From an uncultured Kordiimonas sp. (GTDB lineage Bacteria; Pseudomonadota; Alphaproteobacteria; Sphingomonadales; Kordiimonadaceae), in the NCBI GenBank assembly GCA_947503575.1, contig CANNDZ010000001.1:682001-746000 (forward strand): a stretch of 64,000 nucleotides of DNA, read 5' to 3'. Shown here in pieces: positions 3,620-58,562 of this stretch (positions are counted from its first letter, which is position 1; every line of letters begins with the position of its first letter). The position numbers were made by a program, and so were the translations under genes. Under the pieces are notes generated by a model. The model searched no databases and was not told the origin of the DNA. It saw only the letters and a list, made by a program, of their open reading frames with translations.

Positions 3620-4336
3620 CTATTCGCGGTTCCCAAGGAACTGCAACAGGAACATGAACAGGTTCACAAAGTCCAGGTACAGATTTACCGCACCCATAAT
3701 GGCACCTTTGGCAACAGCTTCGCCAGTTGCCATCATGTAATAGCTTTCCTTGATACGCTGCGTGTCGTAAGCGGTGAGGCCCGCAAAAATGAGCACACCC
3801 GCCACCGAAATGATAAACTGCAGCATGCTGGAGCCGAGAAAGATATTCACCACCATCGCAATCAGTAAGCCGATCAGGCCCATGAACAAGAACGTGCCAA
3901 AACCTGAAAGGCTTTTCTTCGTTGTGTAGCCATACAGGCTGAGCGCACCAAAGGACGCTGCCGTAATAAAGAAGGTGCGCGCGATGCTTGTGCCTGTGTA
4001 GGCCGCAAAAATCCACGCCATCGACACACCCATGGTCGCAGCAAACGCCCAGAAAATCATCTGCAGCGTGCTGGATTTCATTTTATGAACGCCAAAGCTC
4101 ATCACCATGACAAATGCCAGTGGTGCAAGGGCGACAATCCAATGCAGGCCGCTGCCGTATATCGCGCTCAGCAAGGCTTCGTTTGTGCCAACAACCATCG
4201 CAACGATGCCTGTTAGCAAAACACCTGAGGCCATGTAGTTATAGACCTTCAGCATATAGGCCCGCAGGCCTTCATCATACTCAGCGGTTTGTGCCGCTGT
4301 TCCTGCCCGATAGGCAGTTCCGTATCGATCAACCAT
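3620..4336 (-). CDS. Bax inhibitor-1 / YccA family membrane protein
   Basis: A 238-residue protein with seven hydrophobic segments and the family-typical parts YMLKVYNYMASGVLLTGI at the first span and AGLTAYDTQRIKE near the C-terminus, the aspartate-containing loop that acts as pH sensor in the TMBIM fold. Bacterial relatives include YccA, which modulates the FtsH protease, and the BsYetJ calcium leak channel, so a role in membrane protein quality control or ion leak is possible. The start is supported by GGGAG 5-6 nt upstream. Monocistronic, with its own terminator downstream. Confidence 0.9.
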   Translation of the reverse strand: MVDRYGTAYRAGTAAQTAEYDEGLRAYMLKVYNYMASGVLLTGIVAMVVGTNEALLSAIYGSGLHWIVALAPLAFVMVMSFGVHKMKSSTLQMIFWAFAATMGVSMAWIFAAYTGTSIARTFFITAASFGALSLYGYTTKKSLSGFGTFLFMGLIGLLIAMVVNIFLGSSMLQFIISVAGVLIFAGLTAYDTQRIKESYYMMATGEAVAKGAIMGAVNLYLDFVNLFMFLLQFLGNRE

Positions 4337-4449: not shown

Positions 4450-6984
4450 TCACTCCGTCCGCAGAACGGCATTGGGTTTAACTGACAGTGCACGAAAGCT
4501 GGACCCAAGGCCAAAAAGTACTGTCACAAACAGACTTACAGAGACCGTGATTAGCATAGGAACCGGCAAAAAGGCGAATTCCATATCCATAACAAACGAT
4601 ACTACAATCCATCCGGTCAGTGTTCCAAGCCCAAGGGCAATAGCAGCAGTGATCAAGCCGATCAGGGCATACTCCAGAAGATACGCTCGCAAAATCTGGC
4701 TTCTGACTGCGCCGACAACTTTCAGGATCACGCTTTCATAAACCCGTTGCTGGAACCCGGCGGCAATCGCGCCTGCCAGCACCAGAATGCCTGCAATAAT
4801 CGCAACCATGGCCGTCGCGCGTACAGCAGTGCCGATTTGTTCCACTAGTGTGTTCACCGACGACAGCACATCTTTCATGCGCACAGCGGTAATGTTGGGA
4901 TACTTTCCAGTGATAGTGGAATGCGCCAATTGCTCCGCCGCGCCTGTGGCTTTCAGAGTTGCCATGTAGGTGTGCGGCGCTTGTGACAGGGTGTAAGGGT
5001 CAAACAAAATAACGAAGTTGAAGCCAAATGTGCCCCAGTCAATGGTGCGCAAGGACCGCACGGTTGCCGTGATGTCGCGGCCCAGCACATTAACCGTCAG
5101 CGTGTCGCCAATTGTCAGGCCCAGGCCGTCTGCCACTTCCTTGCCAAGGCTGACCTCGGGGTCACCTGCATAATCAACAGGCCACCATTCGCCTTCGACC
5201 ACAGTGCTCCCTTTGTTCAACTCCTCCATGTAGCTAAGGCCCCGGTCACCGCGTAAAACCCACCGCACATCCTGTGCGACTTCAACGTCGCTTGCGGGCA
5301 CATCCTTCAGGTGCGTTACCCGACCACGCAGGTTCGGAATGGTGACAATATCATCAACGCCTTCAACGGATTTTGCGGTTTGCTCAAATTCATCAATTTG
5401 GTAGGGCTGGATATCCAGCATGAAGAAAGCGGGGGCCTCAGAGGGCACTTGTTCCCCCAGGCGTTTACCCAGATTACCTTCAATGAGCGCAAGACCTGCA
5501 AATAGCGTAAGGCCAAGGCCAAGGGAGATAACAACAGCCCCCGTCGCTGCCCCGGGCCGGTGCAGGTTGGCGACAGCCATGCGGACAAGCGGATTTTTCG
5601 GTCTTGGGGCTGCGGCAGCGCTCTTTTCAATGAGCCAACTGGTCAGGCGCAGAAGCCCTAGCGCCCCCCCTGAGCCGGCCATGAAACCGGCGGCTAGTAT
5701 ACGATTGTCTGACATGCCAACAGCCAGCAGCACTACAATCGTTGCTGCGCCAAAAATGATGGCGGTGTAGGTCAGGCGTGGCCATTTTCCCTCTGGCGCA
5801 ACAATCGCCCGAAACAGGCGCACGGCGGGTAGGTCGCGTGCCTTACCCAGTGGCCATACGGCAAAAGCCACGGTTATCATAAGACCGTATATCGCCGCTA
5901 GCAGTAACGCGACGGGATAAACTCCGCCATCTGGCTTAACCGGTAATGTATCTGGCAGGAACTGCGCCAGCGTACCGGGCAGAAATGCGCCGATAAACAG
6001 ACCGGCAATAATGGCGATCGAGCCAATCAGCAAAATCTGTATAAAATATGTCTGGAAAACTGTGGCGCCGTCTGCCCCTAAAATCTTGAGCGTCGCTATG
6101 GTTCTGGTCTTGCGGTCCATATAGCCGCGCACGGCATTGCCAACACCTACGCCGCCCACCACGAGGGCAGAAATGCCAACAAGGGTCAGGAACATGCCCA
6201 TCTGTTCGATGAAGCGCCGCAAGCCGGGGGCGCTGGTGCCACGGTCGCGCACGCGCCAGTTTTCGTCCGGGAAGGTCTCTTTCATTTGCTCGCGCACGGC
6301 ATCGACATCCGCGCCGGGCGCCAGCCGGATTTTATAATAGAAATTCACCAAGCTACCTGCGGTGATAAGCCCAGTTTCTGCCAGCGCCTCGCGACCAATC
6401 ATCACGGTGGGGCCAAGCTGGAAACCCAGGTTGGCTTTGTCCGGTTCGCGGTCAATGAAAGCGCGGATATCAGCCTTGATGCGACCAAACACCAGCGTAT
6501 CACCCAGCGCCACATCCATTTTGTCGGCCAGAAGCGGATCAATTGCCACGCCCCAAACGTCGTTTACACGTGAAAACAGGGCATCGTTATCCAGTGTAGG
6601 CGACGTCTCGAATGCGCCGTAAAGAGGATATAGGTTATCGACCGCCCGCAGTTCCACGAGTGTTGACGATGGCACCCCTTCAACGCGGGCCATGGTGCGC
6701 AACCGGGCCGAGGATGAGACGTCGCCCGTCTCATTAAACCATGTCATCGCGTCGGGCGTTGCTTCCCGCTGGTAGATGTTGATTTCTATGTCACCGCCCA
6801 GAATGGACTGGCCTTCGCGCTCCAACCCTTCCTGAATGGCTCGGGTCAGCGACCCGATAGCTGCAATGGCAGTGACGCCCAAAATGAGGCAAGCCATGAA
6901 AACCTTGAAGCCGCTTAGGCCCGCCCGCAGTTCCCGAAGCGCCAGCTTTAGCGCAATCGGGGTTTTAGCATCCCGCGTGATCAT
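4450..6984 (-). CDS. ABC transporter permease of the YbbP type (FtsX-like)
   Basis: An 844-residue protein with the layout of the large MacB/FtsX-like permeases: one N-terminal span (LGVTAIAAIGSLTR), a periplasmic domain, a middle group of spans, a second periplasmic domain (about residues 480-690) and three C-terminal spans. LKLALRELRAGLSGFKVF at the start is typical of YbbP. The start codon overlaps the stop of the ATPase gene (ATGA), so the two are translated together. Together with the divergent TesA-like esterase this is the well-known tesA-ybbA-ybbP arrangement. The substrate is unknown; lipids or lipoproteins are often proposed. Confidence 0.93.
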   Translation of the reverse strand: MITRDAKTPIALKLALRELRAGLSGFKVFMACLILGVTAIAAIGSLTRAIQEGLEREGQSILGGDIEINIYQREATPDAMTWFNETGDVSSSARLRTMARVEGVPSSTLVELRAVDNLYPLYGAFETSPTLDNDALFSRVNDVWGVAIDPLLADKMDVALGDTLVFGRIKADIRAFIDREPDKANLGFQLGPTVMIGREALAETGLITAGSLVNFYYKIRLAPGADVDAVREQMKETFPDENWRVRDRGTSAPGLRRFIEQMGMFLTLVGISALVVGGVGVGNAVRGYMDRKTRTIATLKILGADGATVFQTYFIQILLIGSIAIIAGLFIGAFLPGTLAQFLPDTLPVKPDGGVYPVALLLAAIYGLMITVAFAVWPLGKARDLPAVRLFRAIVAPEGKWPRLTYTAIIFGAATIVVLLAVGMSDNRILAAGFMAGSGGALGLLRLTSWLIEKSAAAAPRPKNPLVRMAVANLHRPGAATGAVVISLGLGLTLFAGLALIEGNLGKRLGEQVPSEAPAFFMLDIQPYQIDEFEQTAKSVEGVDDIVTIPNLRGRVTHLKDVPASDVEVAQDVRWVLRGDRGLSYMEELNKGSTVVEGEWWPVDYAGDPEVSLGKEVADGLGLTIGDTLTVNVLGRDITATVRSLRTIDWGTFGFNFVILFDPYTLSQAPHTYMATLKATGAAEQLAHSTITGKYPNITAVRMKDVLSSVNTLVEQIGTAVRATAMVAIIAGILVLAGAIAAGFQQRVYESVILKVVGAVRSQILRAYLLEYALIGLITAAIALGLGTLTGWIVVSFVMDMEFAFLPVPMLITVSVSLFVTVLFGLGSSFRALSVKPNAVLRTE

Positions 6985-15943: not shown

Positions 15944-15947
15944 CGGC

Positions 15948-16040
15948 GGGAGAGCCGGCGGACATGCCGCTCGCCAATCCGGTCAGGTCCGAAAGGAAGC
16001 AGCCGTAACGAGTTTTGGCCTGGGTCGTGCAGGCTTTCCC
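15948..16040 (+). ncRNA. ffs: Signal recognition particle RNA (small bacterial 4.5S type)
   Basis: The conserved Ffh-binding tip is seen at 15981-16004, with GGTCAGGTCCGAAAGGAAGC followed by AGCC, including the GGAA tetraloop-side and AGCA/AGGAAG internal loop sequences. The two ends pair over 9 bp (15948-15956 with 16032-16040, one G-U). The length of about 93 nt fits the small alphaproteobacterial form. Its position just before dnaX is the classic one. The precise ends are inferred from pairing. Confidence 0.94.
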
Positions 16041-16169
16041 ACCTTCACATACAGCTTAATCACAGTGCATCAAAACATTCGTTTTTTGCAAACGCTGATG
16101 GTGAAGACGCTTTCATGACCTTGTTAATCCTGCTAGTCATATTCGGGTTTCAACCGGAGTATTAGACGC

Positions 16170-17968: not shown

Positions 17969-18292
17969 ATGAAAAACCTCACAGAAATGTTGAAAAAAGC
18001 CCAGGAAATGCAGGCCAAGATGGGTGACATGCAAGCGGGCCTTGAAGACCTCACGGTTGAAGGTGTTGCCGGGGCGGGCATGGTAAAAGTTACCCTCAAT
18101 GGCAAAGGCGATATGAAATCCATTTCGCTCGATGACAGCCTGTTTAATTCCGAAGACCGCGAAGTTTTGGAAGACCTCATTCTTGCTGCCCATACCCAGG
18201 CAAAAGCCAAAGTGGCAGATGCCGCTGCCGAGCAGATGAAAGACCTTGCAGGCGGCCTTGATCTGCCTGCTGGTTTCAAGATGCCGTTTTGA
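17969..18292 (+). CDS. ybaB: YbaB/EbfC family nucleoid-associated protein
   Basis: A 107-residue DNA-binding protein with the family N-terminus MKNLTEMLKKAQEMQAKM, central GVAGAGMVKVTLNGKGDMKSI and the closing LPAGFKMPF. It follows dnaX by 26 nt, as in most Proteobacteria. Unlike the usual order, recR does not come next: three other genes intervene. A diverged copy of the last 69 nt of this gene, including the stop position, lies about 1.2 kb downstream (19421-19489). Confidence 0.95.
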   Translation: MKNLTEMLKKAQEMQAKMGDMQAGLEDLTVEGVAGAGMVKVTLNGKGDMKSISLDDSLFNSEDREVLEDLILAAHTQAKAKVADAAAEQMKDLAGGLDLPAGFKMPF

Positions 18293-18302
18293 GGGACAAT
18301 TC

Positions 18303-19436
18303 ATGAAAGCTGCAAAATATGGATTGGTCTTCGTTGGTGCACTGATACTGCTGGTGGGCGGTATTGTCGCCACCGGTGCGATGCGCGATATCGTGATCTG
18401 GTATGCCAAACCAGGCCATGGTTGGATGCCCGAGAAGAATGCCCCCGCGCCCGATTATGCGGACGCTAAAAACTGGGCGGCGCTCCCGGACCGGGAAGAC
18501 CTTGCTGACCTGACCCCTGAAGGTACTGTCGTAGCAATAGCCCCGGCTGTTGATGTCTTTTTCATCCATCCCACCGGGTTCCTGAACGGCATGAACTGGA
18601 ATTCACCGATGGACCCCAATAGCCGCACGGAAGAAAACACCCAATGGATGATGGCTAATCAGGCAAGCACGTATAATGGCTGCTGTGCGGTTTATGCGCC
18701 GCGTTACCGCGAGGCATCGATTTTCCGCTATCTTACGGCCACGCCCGATATTGTTGAAAAATCCATGGACCTTTCTTTCAGCGACCTGGTGCGTGCCTTT
18801 GATCATTTCCTCGAGCATCACAACAAAGGCCGCCCGTTCATTTTGGCAAGCCACAGCCAGGGCACGCAACATGGTTTTCGCCTGCTGGCGGAACGCATTG
18901 ATGGTACCCCGCTTGAGGGGCGGATGGTCGCCGCCTACCTTATCGGCAGCCGGGTCAGCAATACGATGGCCCGCTCGCTCAACAGTGTGCCTGTCTGCGA
19001 CAGGGCGCTGCAAACAGGCTGCCTGATCCATTGGGCTGTGTTCGGCGAGGGCGGCGCGCCCGATGACACCATGCAAGACCTTGTGTGTGTTAACCCTTTG
19101 AATTGGCGGCGCAATGGTCCACGCGCAGACGCCGCCCTGCACAAGGGGCTTGTGCCCGGCAGCGGCGAATTTTCGCTTCAGCTATGGGGCGATGACAAGG
19201 CAGCCGGTGTTGACTTTGGCCCGCTTGGTGCGCCAGTGACCGCGTTAACCTGGGCTGAATGCATGGACGGCATCCTATATGTGCGGGACTTTACGGGTAC
19301 GCCTTATGCTGGCCCAGACCTCGGCGGCAAAAACTATCATGGGCTTGATTATCCCTTGTTCCATATGGATATCCGCGCGAATGCCGCTGCTCGGACCGCT
19401 GCCTTTTTAGCCACTCTATCGCAGGTAAGTAGATGA
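18303..19436 (+). CDS. DUF3089 alpha/beta-hydrolase-like membrane-anchored protein
   Basis: A 377-residue protein with an N-terminal membrane anchor (GLVFVGALILLVGGIVATGA). DVFFIHPTGFLNG, YAPRYREAS and the nucleophile-elbow-like ILASHSQGTQHG are the marks of DUF3089 (PF11288), a lipase-like family of unknown substrate. The ATG at 18303 lies 10 nt after ybaB. The gene interrupts the ybaB-recR order. Its last codons and TGA fall inside a repeat of the ybaB tail, so its 3' end marks a recombination junction. This points to acquisition by transfer. Confidence 0.85.
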   Translation: MKAAKYGLVFVGALILLVGGIVATGAMRDIVIWYAKPGHGWMPEKNAPAPDYADAKNWAALPDREDLADLTPEGTVVAIAPAVDVFFIHPTGFLNGMNWNSPMDPNSRTEENTQWMMANQASTYNGCCAVYAPRYREASIFRYLTATPDIVEKSMDLSFSDLVRAFDHFLEHHNKGRPFILASHSQGTQHGFRLLAERIDGTPLEGRMVAAYLIGSRVSNTMARSLNSVPVCDRALQTGCLIHWAVFGEGGAPDDTMQDLVCVNPLNWRRNGPRADAALHKGLVPGSGEFSLQLWGDDKAAGVDFGPLGAPVTALTWAECMDGILYVRDFTGTPYAGPDLGGKNYHGLDYPLFHMDIRANAAARTAAFLATLSQVSR

Positions 19437-19489
19437 AATACCCGGCGGACGGCTTTTATTTGCCCACTGGTCTCAAAACGCCATTTTAA
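19421..19489 (+). pseudogene. Diverged second copy of the ybaB 3' end
   Basis: Bases 19421-19489 align without gaps to 18224-18292, the end of ybaB. By hand count 45 of 60 bases match from 18234/19431 on. In the ybaB frame the copy reads MKYPADGFYLPTGLKTPF and then TAA, against MKDLAGGLDLPAGFKMPF and TGA. Several differences are synonymous (CTG/TTG, CCT/CCC, AAG/AAA, CCG/CCA), so the copy looks like the tail of an orthologous gene rather than a decayed fresh duplicate. It overlaps the DUF3089 stop. Confidence 0.75.
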
Positions 19490-19501
19490 GACAGGTTTGA
19501 T

Positions 19502-19756
19502 GTGATTCAACAAACCAAATCGCTGAAAGACTGGATTGAAGAACTGATCTCTATGGAGATGGAAGGTGCCAGCCTTGAGGCGTGGTATGAGCGTGCCCAA
19601 GCCATGCTTGAGGCCCTGCAAAGCGATCCAAATGGTGCGGAAATCCCCGAACAGGTTTGGCAGTTTCTTTCAAACGCTGATAATCGCGCCGAAGACCCAA
19701 AATACGGTGTGGAAGAACTGCATAAAATCATGACCCTGATGGATATTAATGGCTGA
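19502..19756 (+). CDS. Small acidic helical protein, function unknown
   Basis: An 84-residue protein starting at GTG, with AGG about 7 nt upstream. It is rich in Glu and Trp, with helices around SLKDWIEELISMEMEGAS and LEAWYERAQAMLEAL, and ends [10 protein letters not shown]. No known motif is seen. It overlaps the next gene by 8 nt and starts 12 nt after the ybaB tail copy. The tight packing supports a real gene, but its role, perhaps linked to the GIY-YIG protein, is unknown. Confidence 0.65.
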   Translation: MIQQTKSLKDWIEELISMEMEGASLEAWYERAQAMLEALQSDPNGAEIPEQVWQFLSNADNRAEDPKYGVEELHKIMTLMDING

Positions 19757-20018
19757 GGTCTGCTTCACCTATGTGCTGGGCAGTGTTACGGGCGATGCCG
19801 GTCGTACTTATGTGGGTTGGACCAATGATCTGGAAAAACGGCTGGCGGCGCACAATGCGGGCACCGGGGCCAAATCCACCCGTGGTCGACAGTGGATCAT
19901 TTTACACATTGAAGAATTTAAAAACCGGTCCGACGCCATGAGCCGGGAATGGCACTTGAAACGTGACCGGAAATTCCGCAAACAGTTGCTAATGGAATTT
20001 ATGGCAAAGGATGGCTGA
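19749..20018 (+). CDS. GIY-YIG nuclease domain protein (YhbQ/UPF0213-like)
   Basis: An 89-residue single-domain protein. TYVLGS (GIY position) and [18 protein letters not shown] (YIG position and the conserved Arg) are followed by [16 protein letters not shown], with the metal-binding Glu. This is the standalone UPF0213 class, related to the UvrC N-terminal nuclease and of poorly defined function, probably in DNA repair. It overlaps the preceding ORF by 8 nt and shares one base with the recR start (TGATG), so it is translationally coupled to recombination repair. Confidence 0.9.
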
Positions 20019-20623
20019 TGCCTCGCTCCCACGGCGCCGATATAGACAAGCTTATTCAGCTGCTGGCCAAATTGCCGGGGCTCGGCCCGCGCTCGGCGCG
20101 ACGCTCTGCGCTGCAGATGCTGAAGAAAAAAGACAGCGTTATGGTGCCGCTTGCTACTGCGCTGCGCGATGTCGCTGAACGGGTTCAAATCTGCACTGTG
20201 TGTGGCAATGTGGACACCCATAATCCCTGCCATGTCTGTGAAGACCCGCGCCGCGACCAAACGGTTATTTGTGTTGTGGAGGAAGTGGCAGACCTATGGG
20301 CGCTGGATCGGTCTGAAACCTTCAGAGGGCGCTATCATGTGCTGGGCGGAACCCTGTCGGCACTGGATGGTGTTGGGCCAGATGACTTGAATGTCGCTGG
20401 GCTCATCGACCGCGCGGATGCAGAGGGTGTGACAGAAGTTATCCTGGCCCTTAACGCCACGGTTGATGGCCAAACCACCAGCCACTATCTGGCAGAACGC
20501 CTTGCGGATACCGGCGCCAAAGTTACGGCACTGGCACACGGTGTGCCGGTGGGCGGCGAGCTTGATTATCTGGATGATGGCACCCTGGCGGCTGCGCTGC
20601 GTGCTCGAGGAACGGTGTCATGA
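20018..20623 (+). CDS. recR: Recombination mediator protein RecR
   Basis: A 201-residue protein. An N-terminal helix-hairpin-helix ([14 protein letters not shown]) is followed by the four-cysteine zinc finger (CTVCGN...CHVC) and the Toprim domain ([19 protein letters not shown]), and ends with [17 protein letters not shown]. It works with RecF and RecO in loading RecA at gaps. The start overlaps the GIY-YIG stop and the end overlaps the GFA gene by 4 nt, so it lies inside a coupled run beginning with dnaX. Confidence 0.97.
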
Positions 20624-56783: not shown

Positions 56784-56934
56784 GGGCTTGCCTTTCCCTT
56801 GCCTTTCTCAGACGAGAAACTATGGTCAAGCCTCGCTTATAGGGGTGCGCCATAAAGAAGGCAATCCGCCAAAGGCTGCCGCGCGTAGCAAGGGCGCGAT
56901 TAGTTGCCACATAGTTAATCGAGGGAGCTTGGCC

Positions 56935-57522
56935 ATGAACGCAAAAACCGGACTGATCGCAGGGATTGTTGTGGGTGCGCTTGCAGCATTGGGCGCGGTG
57001 GTGTTCACGGGCGGTAACGGCACCAAACAGACCGGCGGGATAGAGCCTTACCTCGTGGGGGAAATGGCATCCCTGACCGTACCGGCGGAACCGCAAATGC
57101 TGTCGGATCACATCATCATGGCTGAAAGCGGCGAGCCCAAAAAGCTGTCGGCCATGGCAGGCAAGGCCATGCTGATCAACCTGTGGGCGCCCTGGTGCGC
57201 GCCCTGCCGCGCGGAGATGAAAGAGCTGGCGCATGTGCAAAAGGAACTCGGCGACGATAGTTTTGAGGTTATCGCCATTAATGTGAACCGGGGCGGTATT
57301 CGTGAAGCAGAAGAAACCCTGAAGGAATGGGGCATCGAAGGCTTGGCCCTGTATGCCGAACCCACGATGGCGATCGCGTTTGACCTCGCTGAAGGCGCGC
57401 TGCCCACCAGCTTTGTGGTGGACAAGGCGGGCCGCGTGCGTGCGCTGTACCTCGGCCCGCTGGCGTGGGACAAACCCGAGGGCATCAAGCTCTTTGAAGC
57501 GCTTAAGAAGGGCGAGATTTGA
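56935..57522 (+). CDS. tlpA: TlpA/DsbE-like thiol:disulfide oxidoreductase
   Basis: A 195-residue membrane-anchored thioredoxin-like protein. The N-terminal span (GLIAGIVVGALAALGAVVF) leads to a periplasmic domain with the WAPWCAPCRAE active site and PTSFVVDK (cis-Pro loop). Such reductases serve cytochrome c or copper-site maturation. GGGAG stands upstream of the ATG. The argH/tlpA pair is conserved in Alphaproteobacteria. The last codons are repeated in diverged form at 58509-58562 and, shorter, at 63309-63335. Confidence 0.94.
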   Translation: MNAKTGLIAGIVVGALAALGAVVFTGGNGTKQTGGIEPYLVGEMASLTVPAEPQMLSDHIIMAESGEPKKLSAMAGKAMLINLWAPWCAPCRAEMKELAHVQKELGDDSFEVIAINVNRGGIREAEETLKEWGIEGLALYAEPTMAIAFDLAEGALPTSFVVDKAGRVRALYLGPLAWDKPEGIKLFEALKKGEI

Positions 57523-58466
57523 CGGCTGGACAGTTGGCCAAAATTTCAAAAAACGACGTGGTTACCGTTCTGCGGATTTTTTCACTGGTATGGCTTTGCA
57601 TCGTCGCTAAGCCTATCGTAGCCCAGGAATCGGTGGGTATACCAATTGAACTGGATGCGGATGGCCATGTTCTCGTGTCTGCTTATGTTAACGGCAAGGG
57701 CCCTTTCACCTTTGTGCTGGATTCGGGTGGTGGCGGCAGCCATATGATTTCGGCGTCTGTGGCGGCACAGGCTGAGGTGTCACTTGGTAAACCATCAACC
57801 GGTCAAACGGGGTCCGGCAGCATCCAAATGTGGGATGGGGGTGAACAGAAACTGTCATTCGTAAATAGCATGGGCCAGCAGGCGCAGTTTTTTATCGAAC
57901 AATATACCTTTGGTGAACCCCCCGTTGCGGGCCAGCCTGAGCTGGCAGGCACGATTGGCACGCCCTTGTTTGACCAGTTTGTCGTTGAGCTGGACTTTGC
58001 AAACCTTCAGATGGTTTTGCATGACCCCAAAAGCTGGACCAGACCCGCACAAACGTTTGAGGTAAAGCTGCATTTTGGTTGGTTTTCTAAAGTGCCGCGT
58101 GTTGCCCTGAATATCAACGGGCGAAAGACAAAACTGTTGTTGGATACTGGTGCTTTTGCCGCTGCTGTACTGCCGCCAAAGGCAAGCGCAAAGTTTGGCC
58201 TGGCCGCGACAACCATATCCGGCAGGATAACGACAGGGGCTGAAAACCTGACCACCCGCAACATGGTTGCGGATACTGTTGATTGGGCGGGCCGGTCTTT
58301 TGCGGGGGTCCCTCTTGTGGTGGCCGAGGGGTTTAGTGGCGACGGGGTGCTGGGCATGGGCCTGCTCGCCTGCCACCACTTATGGATATCTTACCCGAAA
58401 AAGAAAATGTATTTGGGCGAAGAGAGCACCAATGCGCTGTGTACTGCAGGCAAACCAGTTGATTGA
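57519..58466 (+). CDS. Retropepsin-like aspartic protease
   Basis: A 315-residue exported protein (hydrophobic stretch about residues 14-33, then AQE). Two pepsin-like half sites are seen: FVLDSGGGGSHM in the first half (DSG) and LLLDTGAFAAAV in the second (DTG), each followed by a hydrophobic flap region such as GTIGTPLFDQFVVELDF. This is the Asp_protease_2 type (PF13650), of unknown bacterial substrate. The start is TTG at 57519, overlapping the tlpA stop, with AGGGCGAG upstream. It looks inserted: a copy of the tlpA tail follows it. Confidence 0.8.
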   Translation: MTAGQLAKISKNDVVTVLRIFSLVWLCIVAKPIVAQESVGIPIELDADGHVLVSAYVNGKGPFTFVLDSGGGGSHMISASVAAQAEVSLGKPSTGQTGSGSIQMWDGGEQKLSFVNSMGQQAQFFIEQYTFGEPPVAGQPELAGTIGTPLFDQFVVELDFANLQMVLHDPKSWTRPAQTFEVKLHFGWFSKVPRVALNINGRKTKLLLDTGAFAAAVLPPKASAKFGLAATTISGRITTGAENLTTRNMVADTVDWAGRSFAGVPLVVAEGFSGDGVLGMGLLACHHLWISYPKKKMYLGEESTNALCTAGKPVD

Positions 58467-58475
58467 TCTGGTGCA

Positions 58476-58562
58476 GGGCACGTCTTGTTCCTCGGGCCGA
58501 TGAAATGAGAAAACCCCGAAGGCATCGCGCTGTTTGAATCGCTGAAGAAGGGTGGGATTTAG
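58476..58562 (+). pseudogene. Diverged remnant of the tlpA 3' end
   Basis: The stretch reads, in one frame, GHVLFLGPMK, a stop, and then ENPEGIALFESLKKGGI and TAG, matching tlpA GRVRALYLGPLAWDKPEGI...LFEALKKGEI with two codons missing and one stop inside. Over the last 18 codons 42 of 54 bases agree with 57469-57522 by hand count. Differences include many third positions, as between orthologues. It lies 9 nt after the retropepsin stop. Confidence 0.75.

Follow-up and report, generated by a model that had tools for sequence, protein, structure and literature searches.

Displaced 3' ends of ybaB and a thioredoxin-like gene in Kordiimonas suggest one-sided, upstream-anchored gene addition

The 3' end of the intact ybaB gene of an uncultured Kordiimonas sp. 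is repeated on the far side of a DUF3089 gene, and the 3' end of an intact thioredoxin-like gene (tlpA) is likewise repeated behind an insert within the same 64,000-nucleotide stretch of DNA analysed here (the window, which sits in contig 1 of a 3.6-Mb genome, G000) and, counting the window, in 5 of 17 loci of the genus. One-sided homologous addition, anchored in the upstream gene and completed by a non-homologous joint on the right, is the explanation that we favour for the scars at ybaB and tlpA, with a probability of roughly 0.6. The incoming DNA would stem from a relative and consist of one or a few foreign genes preceded by the 3' portion of a conserved gene, which would serve as the anchor for homologous recombination. 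The other end of this DNA, having no homology, would be joined within the 3' portion of the resident copy. The anchor gene would remain complete, now with the end brought in by the donor, and the resident end (37-143 aligned bases), along with everything behind it, would be pushed downstream and decay. At ybaB, a single event would have set the DUF3089 gene in front of orf84; at tlpA, repeated events within one clade would have produced arrays in which genes and tails alternate.

The ybaB-recR locus consists of the following parts:

17969..18292, + strand: ybaB (YbaB/EbfC family; Pfam PF02575, E 3.6e-29), intact, its end repeated
18231..18293, + strand: tail A, the ybaB end within the repeat (local alignment, 47/63 identical to tail B)
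18303..19436, + strand: inserted DUF3089 gene, 377 aa, running to a TGA inside tail B (Pfam PF11288, E 6.6e-58)
19428..19490, + strand: tail B, a displaced and decayed copy of the ybaB end (local alignment, shuffle score, codon-position test)
19502..19756, + strand: orf84, no family, starting 12 nt past the stop of tail B (spacing as behind ybaB in the relative G003)
19749..20018, + strand: GIY-YIG domain gene (Pfam PF01541, E 4.3e-16)
20018..20623, + strand: recR, right border of the variable interval (Pfam Toprim_4, RecR_HhH, RecR_C)

The tail repeat at ybaB is genuine. Positions 18224-18292 and 19421-19489 align without an indel, as a preliminary description had it, with 49 of 69 bases identical; the match over the last 60 bases stands, at 44 identities on recount rather than the 45 first given, and 42 of 57 are identical when counted from the ATG. 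Local alignment pairs 18231-18293 with 19428-19490 (47 of 63 columns identical), and the second-best 57-base match to the tail copy on both strands of the window has 31 identities. Comparison with shuffled sequence, suggested at the outset, gives a score that exceeds those of dinucleotide shuffles of the following 4.8 kb by 11 s.d., and the chance expectation, binomial over 6 kb, is about 1e-10. A repeat finder (seed 9) did not report the pair among direct repeats, returning only a 21-nt inverted match between both gene ends. The stop codons of the two tails coincide and the TGA of the DUF3089 gene (19434-19436) lies inside the copy, both as originally described. The displaced tail (19433-19489) is still an open frame of 18 codons, whose ATG overlaps the DUF3089 stop (ATGA) and whose end lies 12 nt before orf84; this frame could couple the translation of orf84.

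Relatives of the DUF3089 protein with 56-58% identity stop near the same residue as the inserted one; thus, the joint between insert and tail probably lies near 19421-19433. The two nearest relatives are labelled Kordiimonadales and Kordiimonadaceae. In the genome G002, the nearest relatives (56-58% identity) form a tandem pair away from ybaB (C24:18651-20930), on a contig other than that of the G002 ybaB; a search for a donor genome with ybaB followed by the DUF3089 gene found none. The insert is inconspicuous in base composition, a promoter and terminator scan gave results near chance, and RNA folding of the tail-copy region (z -0.65) and an Rfam scan of it yielded no structure score of note and no family, respectively. 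The sole Rfam match in the window is a small bacterial SRP RNA (15945-16046; RF00169, 51.6 bits) just 5' of dnaX. Heads of recR and the GIY-YIG gene sought upstream, and tails of dnaX and recR sought downstream, matched at no more than 30 and 32 of 57 bases, which we take as noise.

A ybaB match is present in 27 of 29 family genomes. The comparison set comprises 27 further ybaB loci from 26 genomes, 26 of them with sequence behind ybaB; the locus G004b, where the contig ends, is omitted from downstream counts. The interval between ybaB and recR is at most 80 bases long in 8 of these 26 loci, holds only a GIY-YIG gene in 2 and holds further genes of several kinds in 16, five of which have one two-gene pair in common (by eye). 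The order dnaX-ybaB-recR, which the DUF3089 gene had been thought to interrupt, is accordingly not fixed, as GIY-YIG and/or other genes lie between ybaB and recR in 18 of the 26. Neither a DUF3089 gene in this interval nor a tail copy occurs in any of the 26, so that no relative lacking the gene shows the second, downstream tail, a point singled out for checking from the start. No integrase had been noticed nearby, and there is none among seven scanned proteins of the surrounding operon.

The relatives also indicate which tail is the resident one. In the nearest relative, G003 (ybaB 93% identical), the ybaB stop is followed after 12 bases by the GTG of orf84, with a single tail and no DUF3089 gene; G003 is thus an empty-site relative for the displaced ybaB-orf84 junction. 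In the window, orf84 begins 12 bases past the stop of the copy, and a search of 296 genomes of the order found orf84 in G000 and G003, with a borderline match in G207 (E 0.001, 34% identity). The identical spacing, together with the rarity of orf84, identifies the downstream tail as the resident ybaB-orf84 junction, before which the DUF3089 gene was inserted. Sequence comparison therefore supports displacement of the resident ybaB tail by insertion of the DUF3089 gene, and with it the earlier view that the resident tail was left behind.

The two ybaB tails do not differ as orthologues do. Their 18 codons contain 14 differences, 9 at codon positions 1-2 and 5 at the third, compared with 125 of 174 at third positions and 49 of 174 at positions 1-2 among ybaB genes of 15 genus members (Fisher p = 0.012, the comparisons not being independent) and with 25 of 34 and 9 of 34, respectively, for the four nearest ybaB genes (p = 0.022). 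In a 63-nt comparison, 17 sites differ, and at 7 of them no other ybaB end among 27 has the base of the copy, whereas the base of ybaB recurs in every case; G013 and G016, whose ybaB ends contain an indel, were excluded from both the codon-position test and this site comparison. The excess at positions 1-2 and the bases not found in other ybaB ends show that the copy has decayed without visible selection. The initial impression that many of the differences are synonymous, as between orthologues, therefore fails for the ybaB pair (5 of 14 at third positions), though it is right for some of the tlpA tail copies described below.

The same comparisons bear on the origin of the present ybaB end. 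The last 60 nt of ybaB are 85% identical to those of G003 and 82% to those of G006, with no drop from the identity upstream, and no mosaic break was seen along dnaX-ybaB. Over the 63 nt, the two tails share a base that G003 lacks at 5 sites, and the copy and G003 share one that ybaB lacks at 1. A tree of ybaB 3' ends, proposed as a check, fails to place the 57-nt tail: the best branch for the copy is that of G018, and positions beside its own ybaB and beside G003 are 1.1 and 2.5 log units worse (AU 0.35 and 0.09). Of the original proposal that foreign DNA carrying a ybaB end recombined into the operon, the displaced resident tail is supported, and the present end may be of foreign origin. These data speak for a duplication within the lineage, in which a circle or tandem duplication containing the genome's own ybaB tail and the DUF3089 gene was incorporated by a single crossover or end joining, with no foreign ybaB end: the tails side with each other against G003 at 5 sites to 1, their difference at third positions is no larger than that at positions 1-2, and identity along ybaB shows no break.

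When the window was scanned for 57-base repeats separated by 150-4000 bases, one additional pair emerged, the end of the thioredoxin-like gene (Redoxin/AhpC-TSA), for which tlpA is a label of convenience, and a copy 1040 bases further on:

56935..57522, + strand: tlpA, thioredoxin-like gene (ORF 56788-57522, start picked by comparison; Pfam Redoxin / AhpC-TSA; orthologues in 16 other genus genomes)
57446..57520, + strand: tlpA end within the second repeat (58/75 identical to the copy)
57519..58466, + strand: inserted aspartyl-protease-like gene, 315 aa (Pfam PF13650, E 1.8e-17)
58486..58560, + strand: putatively displaced copy of the tlpA end (local alignment 58/75; z 18)

The aspartyl-protease-like insert has only distant matches elsewhere in the genus (26-41% over parts). 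A protein search of 19 genus genomes returned tail-only matches behind tlpA in several relatives. Among the 17 genus loci (16 relatives and the window), nine tail copies occur in five, three each in G018 and G006 and one each in G015, G003 and G000, with different genes between; in the other 12 loci the best match behind the gene is at most 31 of 57. Relative to the stop, the copies extend from -135 to 6, -63 to -16 and -35 to 1 in G018; from -61 to -2, -105 to -2 and -51 to -2 in G006; from -94 to -7 in G015; from -70 to 0 in G003; and from -76 to -2 in G000. The right edge is thus at or near the gene end, at it for most copies (-16 to +6), and the left edges range from -135 to -35.

Several tlpA tails diverge as orthologues do, and three copies appear to pair ends from diverged lineages. 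Between copy G018+1601 and the tlpA end of G018 itself, 27 of 136 sites differ, 21 of them third positions, and this copy is equally close to the G006 end (108) and to its own (109); a third-position bias, tested against an even spread, is also seen in G006+2559 (10 of 15 differences) and G015+6157 (9 of 12). The nearest sequence to G006+1474 and to G003+2859 is their own tlpA end, and for G000+984, the copy in the window, neither its own end nor any other is clearly nearest. Across all nine copies, changes number 38 at positions 1-2 and 77 at position 3, compared with 19 and 81 in five orthologue pairs (p = 0.02), which suggests that their divergence took place mostly under selection, with some decay. 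Thus, some events would have joined diverged ends, and others look as though they occurred within the lineage or with a near relative. Duplication within the lineage gains from the two copies nearest to their own gene ends but does not account for the three that diverge from theirs in an orthologue-like manner; moreover, a plain tandem duplication would leave 5' or middle parts of the gene as well, none of which reached z 6 in the control described below. We regard it as a possible, although unlikely, origin of the scars.

Similarity of the copies falls with distance from tlpA in G006 (88, 85 and 74%) and shows no steady fall in G018 (80, 75 and 86%), so that no clear sequence of events can be read from the arrays. 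In five genomes, all free of tail copies, the neighbour at the tlpA end is a gene resembling glutathione S-transferase (by eye), which is probably the older state. G006 and G018 both have a tail copy ahead of the same PD40-repeat gene, 38 and 55 bases from its ORF, as would follow if some of the scars are older than the separation of these species; no copy was detected in front of the PD40 gene in G003 and G014. An empty site for a single event at tlpA was not seen among the relatives.

One-sided addition accounts for the shape of these scars: an upstream anchor leaves the gene whole; homology between donor and recipient would end at the stop, which fixes the right edge there; a non-homologous join could fall at any point within roughly the final 140 bases of the resident gene, which lets the left edge vary; and repetition would yield arrays. 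From this anatomy we infer all three of its elements, namely the one-sided homologous event, the illegitimate right joint and the donor. Elements with an integrase typically insert at gene 3' ends, where the gene is regenerated and its old end displaced, and tandem arrays such as those at tlpA would suit them. The 3' ends of ybaB and tlpA might then be attachment sites of small elements that carry a replacement gene end, with the integrase acting from elsewhere. Such site-specific integration is weakened by the left edges of the nine tlpA copies, whose variation from -135 to -35 leaves no fixed core; the ybaB and tlpA ends share no evident sequence (by eye); and no integrase, transposase or other recombinase family was found among 33 proteins scanned with Pfam, a scan that some cargo ORFs, such as one of 295 aa in G003, fell outside. 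We consider this explanation highly improbable.

A third anchor gene shows the same anatomy. In G012 (L099, reading from ybaB, approximately 4073-4127 and 4732-4786), the end of the GIY-YIG gene (55 bases, 49 identical) is repeated beyond a membrane-protein gene, and the repeated part ends 29 bases before the stop. As a control, the start, middle and end of ybaB (27 loci), tlpA (17 loci) and the GIY-YIG gene (14 loci) were aligned to the sequence behind each. Gene ends reached z of at least 10 in 7 of the 58 loci (tlpA 5/17, ybaB 1/27, GIY-YIG 1/14); starts and middles reached z 6 in none of 116 tests. Although other local repeats exist (paralogues, repeat proteins), similarity by chance or composition, or a dispersed repeat lying in gene ends by accident, has a negligible probability, given that the gene ends of the seven loci exceed dinucleotide shuffles by 11 to 49 s.d., that far-distance control comparisons gave no matches and that tlpA tail matches with E up to 0.001 are located behind tlpA, the remaining matches being tlpA itself or thioredoxin-fold proteins.

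The scars are rare. In a survey of 864 kb with 2654 ORFs of at least 80 aa, shadow ORFs included (464 kb of G000 with the window and 200 kb each of G018 and G006, whose tlpA loci lie outside the sample), the only tail-confined downstream copies with at least 40 of 57 identities were those of ybaB and tlpA in the window; hence the scars are real but confined to few sites and are no general feature of these genomes. Set aside as paralogues, repeat proteins or other repeats, on neighbouring-block similarity and by eye, were L108, L109 (1494), L110, L113, L115, L117 (39 and 34/57), L120, L126, L174, L175, L181 (39/57), L188 and G019. Weak tail-confined matches on the minus strand of L109 (38/57, a 26-nt AT-rich match) and in the GIY-YIG gene of G007 (20 nt) were also set aside, as were weak matches downstream in L127, L181 and L182 and upstream in L179 (34-35/57), and the ybaB end of G010 and ybaB start of G028 (both z 5.2).

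Several of these observations count against one-sided addition. The 16 other ybaB loci that bear extra genes have no tail copy, which suggests that scar-free exchange is commoner; the PD40 gene is free of a scar in G003 and G014; a ybaB-DUF3089 donor did not turn up; and the two ybaB tails seem more alike than the copy and G003 do (5 sites to 1). The uneven ages in the G018 array, the want of an empty tlpA site, the restriction to two sites in 864 kb and the unremarkable composition of the insert point the same way.

Comparable events are known elsewhere. Among Vibrio cholerae T6SS effector genes, sequential displacement generates arrays of immunity genes by a mechanism akin to homology-facilitated illegitimate recombination (PMC5361080); as described there, these arrays share with the scars reported here an upstream homologous anchor, a non-homologous far end, an old 3' part moved behind the newcomer, growth by repetition and independence from an integrase. 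In that system, the displaced immunity genes and effector ends are described as kept for use, whereas the piece displaced here, 37-143 bases from the end of a housekeeping-type gene that itself remains intact, has no use, and unrelated genes make up the cargo. C-terminal displacement in rhs and vgrG genes, in which recombination between similar 5' and different 3' parts is reported to orphan 3' ends downstream (PMC8125069), resembles the present case in those orphaned ends; here, by contrast, the displaced end and its replacement code for the same part of the protein, which leaves nothing but a scar. The minimal mobile elements of Neisseria, described as different whole-gene cassettes between two conserved genes in which no mobility genes were found (PMC3898611), fit the ybaB-recR interval, where 16 of 26 other family loci hold varied genes besides GIY-YIG, but are exchanged, according to that account, by homology on both sides, whereas the scars here point to one-sided additions. 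Of small variable segments, 10-18% are reported to lie between direct repeats, 66-94% of which are shorter than 30 bp and are read as deletion sites (PMC2884548); flanking direct repeats are common to both cases, but those found here consist of the upstream gene's 3' end, over 37-143 columns. Searches of open-licence papers brought up no description of displaced ends behind housekeeping genes, which is no proof of absence. The recurrence at tlpA is best read as a known type of event, end displacement, that is new in its housekeeping-type anchors and arbitrary cargo.

Variable spots between conserved genes that lack an integrase are well known, and the first addition of a gene at such a spot usually leaves no trace. 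The displaced end of a conserved gene reveals which way the event ran, on which side its anchor lay, where the resident junction was and roughly how old the event is. Past insertions of genes can thus be recognised by a decaying copy of a gene end on the far side of the newcomer, and because scars of this kind can be sought in any set of genomes without knowledge of the cargo, the share of one-sided (homology-facilitated illegitimate) recombination in gene gain becomes measurable. A more speculative idea, which we consider doubtful, is that certain conserved genes of this genus have 3' ends that act as favoured landing pads, where an end-biased process, such as uptake-linked recombination or cutting by a nuclease (for example, the GIY-YIG protein encoded between ybaB and recR), might add genes, including ones for phage defence and immunity, behind ybaB, tlpA and the GIY-YIG gene, each leaving a decaying scar that records order and origin.

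The cargo of the tlpA inserts or the ybaB-recR interval is diverse, comprising a PD-T4-6-like kinase and CHAT, HARE-HTH, HTH, AhpC/TSA, CdiI_3 immunity-family and DUF2199 proteins, along with several proteins of no family. In the ybaB-recR interval, the CdiI_3 immunity-family protein is found in G003 (L081) and the DUF2199 protein in G014 (L087); a protein in G005 (L091) resembles, by eye, the CdiI_3 protein of G003. Directly behind tlpA in G006 (L156:1679-2947) lies a gene whose product matches the anti-phage kinase PD-T4-6 (PADLOC E 6.4e-124).
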